Positions 14,656 through 17,389 of a DNA stretch of 64,000 bases are shown here, piece after piece. The position numbers were made by a program, and so were the translations under genes. This DNA is from Mucor racemosus (Eukaryota > Mucoromycota > Mucoromycetes > Mucorales > Mucoraceae). Within the stretch, counting starts at the first letter, position 1, and every line of letters starts with the position of its first letter. Location of the stretch: positions 2,709,083 to 2,773,082 of the forward strand of contig JAPEHQ010000007.1 of NCBI GenBank assembly GCA_027405735.1. The letters run 5' to 3'. The notes under the pieces are model-generated. The model searched no databases. It was not told the origin of the DNA and saw nothing but the letters and a program-made list of their open reading frames with translations.

Positions 14656-14657
14656 TA

Positions 14658-15196
14658 CAGTGCATCCATTCTCAAATGGAACATTTTTTGAACTTCATGG
14701 CACATTTTTCGAAAATAAAATGGAACATTCAACCAATTAAATTCAAACAAAATTTGAACTCAATTTGGAACACACTGTGAACCTCAATCTAAATACTTTT
14801 TGAAATTAAGATTGCTCGCATGTGTGAGGTTAAATTGCCCAAAAAAAGAGAGGCTTGATTGACCAAATGTATGAAGCTAATTTACCCAGCTTTCCAAAAA
14901 ATAAATCAACCACTTTTTGCAAATAAGTTTACCAATTTCTGGGCTGGGGGGAGGACATGTCTGAGGGAGGAGAGAAAAAATAGTACTCCAAATATGGTAA
15001 TTTTAAAAAAAGTTCAGCATTTCACCTGGCTTCGTTTCAGCATTTCATCTGGCCTCGTTTCAGCATTTCATCTGGCTTTTTTCTTAAAAAAATTATGGTT
15101 GTTATTTCTCGCGAAGAGGCAGTATGTTTATTTTATGCTGTACCATACAATCAGGAGAATGCAAATAAGTATACCAAGGTCATCGATGAAATGGAA
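14658..15196 (+). repeat. Left terminal inverted repeat
   Basis: Inverted partner of 16705-17245. Only scattered differences are visible, for example TACCATACAATCAGG against TGCCATACAATCAGG. It ends in the coding sequence KVIDEME shared by both internal ORFs. Confidence 0.88.
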
Positions 15197-15337
15197 GGTA
15201 TAACCATTTGCTACTGTGAAAATCCTAAGCACACATTTCTTTGCTCGCTAAAATCAATGGATCTTAATCGATCAGAATATAAACAATATCCTGCAATTTT
15301 GCAAGCAATCAAACAACCTTTTGAAGCGATAAAATAA
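15095..15337 (+). CDS. Short ORF starting inside left TIR, paralogue of exon 1 of the opposite gene
   Basis: Eighty residues from ATG 15095. The first 34 residues (MVVISREEAVCLFYAVPYNQ and onward) come from the inverted repeat and are therefore the same as the minus-strand gene's N-terminus. The sequence then leaves the repeat. The remaining 46 residues still resemble the other protein's next stretch (EGITICYCENPKHTFLC against EDVEICFTRNSKKPRLLC). This suggests a diverged duplicate of the first exon that now ends in its own stop. It may be a short stand-alone version, a decayed second gene or a by-product of repeat conversion. No known domain was recognised. Confidence 0.45.
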   Translation: MVVISREEAVCLFYAVPYNQENANKYTKVIDEMEGITICYCENPKHTFLCSLKSMDLNRSEYKQYPAILQAIKQPFEAIK

Positions 15338-15385
15338 TGCAAGATTTAATAAATAAAAAAATCTTTTAAATGTAGAACAAATTAA

Positions 15386-16808
15386 CTAAATCAGATTGGG
15401 AGTGGGAGGGGGCAACATCTTCGAGCGATAGAACAAATTTTCTCTGCCATCGAATTTAAACAAAGATTTTTTTTCAATGATTTCGTCCTCGCATTCTAAT
15501 ATATGTACTTGATTATCATGCACTATTGTATCTATGATAATTTTTTTTAAATTGGAGTGCTCACTAAAACCAAAGTTAGCTAATTGTTTTGCTTAGAAAG
15601 TAATATGTCACATACCGAATAAAAAATTCCAAATCGTTCATGTTTGTAGTCAAACCCGCAGAATCAATAATCGCTAAACACGCTTTATCCACCTTTGCTA
15701 AGTCCTTTATTAAGTCTACAAACAAAAAGTCAGTATTAAATGCAAAATTGTACTCTATAGTATTTTATATAAGATATTGAATACCTTGAGCGTCACCAGC
15801 CACGTCTGATAATTCATTCATTATATTACCCTTCTTCAAATCTCTTCTGTGCATGGGAGTCTTAGAGTTACAGCTGACTGTAACGTAAACATTTTCTACC
15901 AAAGACCTTTTTTGTAATCCAACTATCATTGATTGAAGCGATTCGACTACATTAGCATTACCCCCCGTCGTTTTCGACTTGCGGCAATAACCTAATATAC
16001 GGTATCCTTCTTGTTTTAAGTTCGTGATATATTGTTGGTATCTTTCAGGTAATTTGATAATATCTTCCAATAAAACATCTACAATGCAATAATTATTAAT
16101 ACTGTAATAGTGATAATAATAAACACATTAATTGCCTTTATAGCTATCCTTTAATACGTATACGCCTCGCAGTGATGACCTTGTCGCTGAATTTTCATGT
16201 TTTCTCTTCACCTTTGCTTCCAAAAACTTCAACTTCTGTGAGGAACACCATGTAACAAATTTGCTGAAAGATTGGCCTTGAAAAATCAAACAGTAACGCT
16301 GCATCTCTGACATAATACTATTGCTTGATAAAAATCTATATTCATATGATATGGATTTAGGGTCAATTGGTAGATACGCAATATTTATAAACTGTTTTAG
16401 TTGCTGTGAAGATTCTATGAAAATGATAAGGTCAGTTATTGGAAGTGAAAAAATATTTTACTGTGAACAAGTACCAAGCATTATATTATAATCTGCATTA
16501 ATAACTTCATTTACTTCTATATCCGCTTCTTCATTATTATTATCTGTATTAACAACTTCATCTACTTCTCTATCCGCTTCTTCGTTATTTTCAATTGTTC
16601 CGTTTGAAGATGAATATAAGTGAATGTCGAACCAATTTGCGTAAATAATTCTTGTACATAAAAGCCTTGGTTTTTTAGAATTCCTTGTAAAACATATTTC
16701 TACATCTTCCATTTCATCGATGACCTTGGTATACTTATTTACATTCTCCTGATTGTATGGCACAGCATAAAATAAACATACTGCCTCTTCGCGAGAAATA
16801 ACAACCAT
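15386..16808 (-). CDS. Serine-recombinase-like protein of a mobile element
   Basis: Five exons: 16808-16475, 16414-16136, 16078-15785, 15715-15616 and 15563-15386. The phases agree throughout and give 394 residues. Introns are 52-69 nt. The second uses a GC donor (AAAG|GCAATT) and the first a weak GTACTT donor. The N-terminal ~110 residues, partly from the TIR, are of unknown type and end in an acidic Glu/Asp/Val repeat. Residues 230-380 resemble a resolvase catalytic domain: GYCRKS (Tyr235, Arg237, Ser239) matches the Y-x-R-x-S active site, SCNSKTPMHRRDL matches the SG...R..L segment, and LAIIDSAGL aligns with the usual LDRLGR but lacks those arginines. Function is inferred: a recombinase, a domesticated derivative or an inactive relative. 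No C-terminal helix-turn-helix was seen. Confidence 0.68.
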
Positions 16809-17245
16809 AATTTTTTTAAGAAAAAAGCCAGATGAAATGCTGAAACGAGGCCAGATGAAATGCTGAAACGAAGCCAGGTGAAATGCTGAACTTTTTTTAA
16901 AATTACCATATTTGGAGTACTATTTTTTCTCTCCTCCCTCAGACATGTCCTCCCCCCAGCCCAGAAATTGGTAAACTTATTTGCAAAAAGTGGTTGATTT
17001 ATTTTTTGGAAAGCTGGGTAAATTAGCTTCATACATTTGGTCAATCAAGCCTCTCTTTTTTTGGGCAATTTAACCTCACACATGCGAGCAATCTTAATTT
17101 CAAAAAGTATTTAGATTGAGGTTCACAGTGTGTTCCAAATTGAGTTCAAATTTTGTTTGAATTTAATTGGTTGAATGTTCCATTTTATTTTCGAAAAATG
17201 TGCCATGAAGTTCAAAAAATGTTCCATTTGAGAATGGATGCACTG
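16705..17245 (-). repeat. Right terminal inverted repeat
   Basis: Inverted copy of the left repeat. It holds the promoter, the start codon and the first ~34 codons of the serine-recombinase-like gene, and its outer end is GGATGCACTG|TA. Confidence 0.88.
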
Positions 17246-17389
17246 TATTTTATAATAAAAATCAAATAGATTTTGTATGAAGCTTAATTTTGTGTGTGTG
17301 AGAGAGTGCGTATGTGTATAAAAAAGGGAATTTATAAACGGTATCATAAAGAAAAAAGAAGACATAAAATATACGGTTGGTTTACAAGC

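Follow-up and report, generated by a model that had tools for sequence, protein, structure and literature searches.

A probable non-autonomous Tc1/mariner-type transposon of Mucor racemosus carrying a gene pair for a predicted serine-recombinase-fold protein with an altered active site and a small partner

The window, by which we mean the whole 64,000-nucleotide stretch of Mucor racemosus DNA analysed here, contains a TA-flanked element of 2,588 bp (14658-17245) bounded by long terminal inverted repeats, from each of which a protein-coding gene reads inward (Table 1). The left end reads CAGTGCATCC from 14658, and the reverse complement of this sequence closes the element at 17245. Counting an outer AT run, the inverted repeat measures 561 nt; the element itself accounts for 545 nt of this (14658-15202 and 17245-16701). 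The arms differ at four positions (15142, 15162, 15198 and 15200), every one in the coding part, and the 437 non-coding bases are identical between them. This length and identity are far beyond chance. A sequence-only reading of the same DNA had noticed TA-flanked ends and inverted repeats of about 540 bp, and both observations were confirmed, with the repeat length now set as above.

Table 1. Positions of the element's genes, repeats and flanks in the window
Feature	Position	Strand	Remark
Left TA flank (target-site duplication)	14656..14657	.	TA seen beside element end
Left terminal inverted repeat, 545 nt	14658..15202	+	Inner part: leader and first 36 codons of small gene
Three 23-bp tandem repeats directly 5' of left start codon	15013..15081	+	Mirror at 16827-16895
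Small gene, single exon, 80 codons/aa, front-end domain only	15095..15337	+	Close homologues in other Mucorales
Large gene, 394 aa, five exons (16808-16475, 16414-16136, 16078-15785, 15715-15616, 15563-15386)	15386..16808	-	
Large-gene intron 2	16079..16135	-	GC-AG in window copy (donor GCAATT)
Right terminal inverted repeat, 545 nt	16701..17245	-	Leader and first 36 codons of large gene
Right TA flank (target-site duplication)	17246..17247	.	TA seen beside element end

The start codons within the repeats (15095 on the forward and 16808 on the reverse strand) begin two different genes, the left an 80-codon gene and the right the large gene, and these are convergent, with stop codons 48 bases apart (15337 and 15386). 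As the sequence-only reading had proposed, the right-hand ATG opens a five-exon gene whose frame closes at 394 residues; this open frame depends on the GC-AG intron 2. The intron 2 donor at the related locus C16 also appeared by eye to be GC (GCAAGT), and in C7 and C17 the intron was modelled as GT by a script permitting GT donors only. The complete left gene (15095-15337) had been overlooked; beyond the repeat it continues into a second half whose conservation extends to other Mucorales. The earlier suggestion that each end would drive any coding DNA placed inside therefore gave way to start exons that open two specific, conserved and convergent genes. The ATG and some 34 codons described as identical in both repeats do share their start codons, and residues 1-34 of the small and large proteins are equal at 33 positions and diverge afterwards; 'identical' was a slight overstatement, because residue 23 is A in the left-hand copy but V in the right-hand one.

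A profile of six small proteins retrieved 66 short homologues, a few of which are first exons of large-type genes. The hosts named for these hits were exclusively Pilobolus and Spinellus, both Mucorales, together with Gilbertella, Parasitella, Absidia, Circinella, Rhizopus, Benjaminiella, Phycomyces, Backusella and Mucor, which we take to be Mucorales as well. For a comparison of lineages we used eight close small proteins (the window's own and seven of the 66 hits, picked for closeness to it) and six large ones (the window's included), two of the latter, P0058 and P0070, being short first-exon pieces put in the large class by sequence. Over residues 35-66, small proteins were 74% alike, large proteins 84% and members of different classes 27%, as against 74%, 84% and 70%, respectively, over residues 1-34 of the same proteins; for the window element's own pair the corresponding figures are 97% (residues 1-34) and 22% (residues 35-66). 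Each gene thus holds its own second half, whereas the stretch encoded in the repeats, residues 1-34, stays alike. The signal for two lineages is weak among six more distant elements: the residues after the split were 44% alike among small proteins, 32% among large proteins and 34% between small and large proteins of other elements, and the two members of the same pair were 25-54% alike (50% in C17 and C23).

The small genes of C7 and C17 differ with dN 0.22 and dS 1.19 (68 codons). For the window copy against the degenerate C16 copy the values were dN 0.08 and dS 0.29, and in the second half dN 0.10 and dS 0.15, a weak sign of selection on that half. The large genes of C7 and C17 gave dN 0.32 and dS 2.5 over 61 codons of the recombinase part, with dS near saturation. 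Purifying selection at the tested loci suggests that the element probably benefits from the pair. As for the shared start exons, the long arms would stay alike through gene conversion reaching into the first exons, so that arm-to-arm conversion would give both proteins their roughly 34 common residues and leave the remainder of each to its own lineage. The arm mismatches cluster near the inner edge (15142-15200), matching the expectation for the end of a conversion tract.

The large protein consists of a front-end domain, a middle region and a C-terminal half with a predicted serine-recombinase fold. When this half was compared structurally, 21 of the best 22 matches were titled recombinase, integrase, resolvase or invertase; the earlier description of a serine-recombinase-like protein was thus borne out by the predicted fold, and the unrelated fold that would have spoken against it did not appear. 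The predicted structure of the whole protein had a pLDDT of 58.9, and its best viral fold match was a COG2452 integrase-resolvase with a low TM-score. Support at the level of sequence for membership of the serine recombinase family is weak, with a Tn3 resolvase match at E 0.29, Pfam Resolvase at E 0.11 in one of ten sequences, and an hhalign result of E 0.0016 with a probability of 16%. No Pfam model reached the cut-off in the large protein, the small protein or their relatives, and hence no TnpB/Fanzor protein was found among them. In Rhizopus delemar, a piece of a large-protein homologue (P0008, G6F43_006259) is fused to a reverse transcriptase domain (PF00078), probably through a retroelement insertion or a gene-model fusion.

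Ser239 lies in GYCRKS, as had been noted, and the window protein has Tyr235, Arg237 and Ser239 of the Y-x-R-x-S motif. This motif is intact in 16 of the 19 locus models where the stretch was recovered, the exceptions being the degenerate-looking copies C16 (His for Arg), L057 (Ala for Ser) and L058 (stop at Tyr). In an alignment (A3) of ten relatives chosen by hand, which left out the window's own protein and the degenerate C16, L057 and L058, the Y, R and S of this motif and the Asp are present in all ten sequences and the R-D motif is mostly kept, and the two arginines of D-R-L-x-R are present in none. At the latter position the window protein reads D320-S-A-G-L324, with both catalytic arginines absent, as opposed to the bacterial and phage rows of a further alignment (A4), nine of nine of which keep both.

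We found the full window repeat once in the genome, and a search for its exact end (≤3 mismatches over 24 bases) returned no second place genome-wide. Six other places (L003 and L005-L009) are similar to the outer part of the repeat (around repeat positions 126-285), and just beyond the matching stretch at four of these (L003, L007, L008 and L009) stands an end of TAC(A/T)GTGCTTCCA type, with 1-3 mismatches. The C7 and C16 ends read TACTGTGCTTCCA(G/C)TCTCAAT and agree with the window end at 18-19 of 23 positions. A genome search with this C7/C16-type end (≤3 mismatches, a cut-off beyond which the window's own end lies) gave 49 places, compared to one for a backwards control. The absence of any other copy with the same ends, named earlier as a reason to doubt the element, therefore held for the exact ends and not for the type. 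Counted with 79 of 125 DDE places (a number back-calculated from the expectation) and five pair loci, six of the 49 ends have a DDE match within 2.5 kb inward (0.22 expected), and for four, from three loci, either the pair or its small member lies inward. Facing ends 625 and 90 bp apart have a MITE-like look. Copies with related ends but different cargo, which the sequence-only reading had looked to for a check, thus do occur in the host genome, enclosing DDE-transposase sequence, nothing recognisable, or the pair; the relatives with a transposase or free of cargo lie elsewhere in the genome and had been overlooked.

Related ends with DDE transposase sequence inside were found at C16, C5:1949 kb and others, and the order on one side of C16 is TA-end, DDE transposase (partly degenerate), small gene, large gene. 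These relatives support the earlier alternative of a DDE-type element with recombinase-like cargo. TA flanks, as insertion at TA with a TA duplication would leave, were seen at both ends of the window element, at the inner and outer ends of C7 and at one C16 end, and the 545-bp repeat with its CAGTGCATCC ends starts in the CAGTG-like manner of Tc1/mariner repeats; CAGTG-type ends together with a TA duplication are typical of DDE Tc1 elements. The spacing from the second D to the E is 34 residues in C7, C16, C2a and L003. The DDE sequences linked to window-type ends are partly degenerate (C16 and L003), and the C7 DDE gene, which matches the DDE_3 profile at E 3.6e-27, has other ends. Transposases located beside the pairs of C7, C16, C2a and C23:807 kb show 28-38% identity to each other. 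At C2a, a 412-codon transposase frame belongs to its own complete Tc1 element (26-bp repeats), which abuts the pair and does not enclose it. In L041 and L054 we found weak DDE matches only, and the 4-5.5 kb of L044, L045, L050, L052, L053 and L055-L059 contained neither a DDE gene nor an end of the window type. Within the window itself, a tblastn search with one query and a five-sequence HMM run against 1,510 open frames, up to E 10, detected no DDE transposase, neither in the element's core, where a hidden one had been considered, nor in the rest of the window, so that the internal DDE (DD34E/D) transposase of Tc1/mariner elements was not found in this copy. Since relatives have DDE sequence, we class the window copy as a non-autonomous derivative.

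The locus C7:656512-662675 (L063+L042+L064) is a near-palindrome of 6,164 bp in which an inner window-like element of 3,050 bp, with the pair and window-type ends, lies between inverted arms. These outer arms hold the different DDE gene with its own TA-CAG ends, TACAGCTTTTGCC, and both transposase frames share one in-frame stop. A minisatellite adjoins both genes of the C7 pair.

As no DDE gene was detected in the window copy and its principal intact gene is the large one, one might suppose that the recombinase-like protein is itself the transposase, representing a new serine transposase class on TA-CAGTG ends in which other residues of the fold substitute for the arginines. Its retained Y-x-R-x-S, Asp and, mostly, R-D motif would fit, as would purifying selection on the gene. 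However, the D-R-L-x-R arginines are missing in all ten aligned sequences, ends of the window type are found with DDE sequence where the pair is absent, we saw no such ends at the majority of other pair loci, and the TA duplication and CAGTG-type ends bear the hallmark of DDE Tc1 elements, so that we consider a serine transposase decidedly unlikely. On account of the arginines lost from the aligned relatives and of the Tc1-like ends, we do not favour the earlier alternative in which the recombinase-like protein was adopted by TA-inserting ends and runs them.

A protein search of the 53.2-Mb host genome gave 61 matches. Among 21 loci (the window and 20 that were fetched), both genes were recognised at 11, convergent at six (the window, C16, C17, C7, C2a and C2b) and divergent at five near-identical ones; at the other ten, one or both genes were unrecognised, and many are degenerate. 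At C16 the first exon of the large gene is absent; at C23:11 kb (L024) we found the small gene together with what looks by eye like the last part of a large gene convergent with it. The five near-identical copies (L046, L047, L048, L049 and L051, near contig ends of C1, C23, C42, C4 and C29), with their genes divergent and a DDE gene adjoining the small one, are perhaps subtelomeric. Counting these five once, four of 24 pair places lie within 3 kb of a DDE place, C2a being one of them, compared to 1.2% of the genome (binomial 1.7e-4; the 61 matches were collapsed by hand to 28 places, and 105 of 125 DDE places were used).

The pair also occurs in the window without a transposase, it lies outside the ends of the Tc1 element at C2a, and its tight convergent arrangement at six loci and the front-end domain common to both proteins would suit a selfish passenger, that is, a killer/antidote or meiotic drive system in which the small protein neutralises the large one and Tc1 elements are mere carriers. 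Yet the sequence carries no sign of toxicity, the recombinase fold suggests DNA as the target, and the database yielded 66 small-type hits against 17 large ones, a count inflated by first exons called as genes. We judge such a passenger unlikely.

Start exons lie within inverted repeats at four loci: 545 nt in the window, 293 nt (97%) in C2a, 228 nt (96%) in L059 and 191 nt (72%) in C17. In L059 (C2:1974500-1979000), front-end frames at 1638-1865 and 2646-2419 face each other in the 228-bp inverted repeat, and we recognised no large gene in the interval. The C7 arms, 2,245 bp long and 99.6% identical, flank the pair and stop short of the start codons. At C3b (C3:1065500-1074000; L065+L050+L066), a large gene is centred in inverted arms of 2,527 bp (99.6%) that carry a piece of a Thi4-like gene, of which a fuller match lies at C23:532015; the large gene was the only one of the pair found between the arms, and the arrangement may stem from an inverted duplication or be an artefact of assembly. 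That pairs or large genes sit in inverted duplications with foreign DNA at C7 and C3b, the latter with its Thi4-like fragment, could be taken to mean that long arms with common start exons are a by-product of inverted duplication or of assembly, the left frame being a truncated copy of exon 1. We consider this very unlikely: the left frame has a second half of its own that close homologues from other fungi conserve (74% over residues 35-66), small-gene dN is well under dS between C7 and C17, and start exons recur in repeats of differing length at the four loci.

Taken together, these results indicate that the window element is probably a non-autonomous Tc1/mariner-type transposon with an accessory pair, consisting of a serine-recombinase-fold protein of changed chemistry and its small partner, a diverged front-end domain standing alone. 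Its transposase gene would have been lost, or never have been present, and the accessory pair retained between the ends. Since no transposase could be detected in the window copy, movement is expected to occur in trans, presumably by cut-and-paste at TA with a DDE transposase given by relatives. The large protein would bind DNA through its recombinase fold, probably at the element's own ends or in the synaptic complex, and, because two catalytic arginines are missing, would not carry out standard serine-recombinase strand exchange. The small protein may pair with, titrate or regulate the large one via the common domain.

Serine recombinases are rare in eukaryotic nuclei. Transposons of the Tn3 family combine a DDE transposase with a serine resolvase and so likewise couple a DDE element to a serine-recombinase-type protein; unlike the window protein, however, the Tn3 resolvase has retained its complete active site and, acting at a res site, resolves cointegrates. 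With Tc1/mariner (IS630-Tc1-mariner) elements and their non-autonomous derivatives, the window element shares the TA target, CAGTG-type ends, DDE-bearing relatives and MITE-like short copies. It differs in its convergent pair of a serine-recombinase-fold protein and a lone-domain partner, in ends of 545 bp that extend into both first exons, and in having no transposase found in the window copy.

Mariner elements with Fanzor1 (PMC3627910) encode an accessory protein akin to a bacterial IS protein, and some copies encode the accessory protein only, between mariner ends with TA duplications. They resemble the window element in joining a Tc1/mariner element to an accessory protein and differ in that theirs is of TnpB type, as opposed to a serine-recombinase fold accompanied by a small gene. 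Saccharomyces kluyveri has six serine recombinase genes of IS607 type which, according to PMC2715888, keep the catalytic motifs with stated exceptions, the serine being lost in two. The IS607 family (PMC2715888 and PMC6188088) resembles our case in placing a serine-recombinase fold in a eukaryotic genome, with the catalytic half C-terminal. IS607 elements have no terminal inverted repeats and no target duplication, whereas the window element has long repeats and TA flanks, and it further departs from IS607-type genes in its Tc1-like ends and a protein that lacks both D-R-L-x-R arginines. KolobokP elements are described in PMC9587614 as composite-like transposons of animals with a DDD/E transposase and a homing endonuclease; these too are eukaryotic DDE elements with an accessory DNA-acting protein and long terminal repeats, but with direct long repeats and a His-Me finger nuclease there, and inverted repeats in a fungus here. 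Searches of open-licence PMC papers brought up no account of a Tc1 element that contains a serine-recombinase-type protein, nor of the pairing of such a protein with a lone-domain partner. We regard the window element as a variant of the known Tc1 type, distinguished by an accessory pair in which the larger protein combines a predicted serine-recombinase fold with an altered active site.

A broader proposal, which we regard as rather unlikely, is that the pair forms a Mucorales-wide accessory module in which a recombinase fold, turned to some new reaction or to regulation on DNA, works with a lone-domain partner. Its activity at the ends would promote copying between arms and recurrently build long inverted repeats (arms of 545, 293, 228, 2,245 and 2,527 bp, some with foreign DNA), with the start exons kept alike and the small protein tracking the large one.

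Start exons held alike by transposon arms offer a testable case of inverted repeats coupling two genes. If the large protein acts on DNA without the two standard arginines, this would be a new chemistry of the serine-recombinase fold; if not, it would be a pseudo-recombinase maintained by transposons, perhaps as a regulator.
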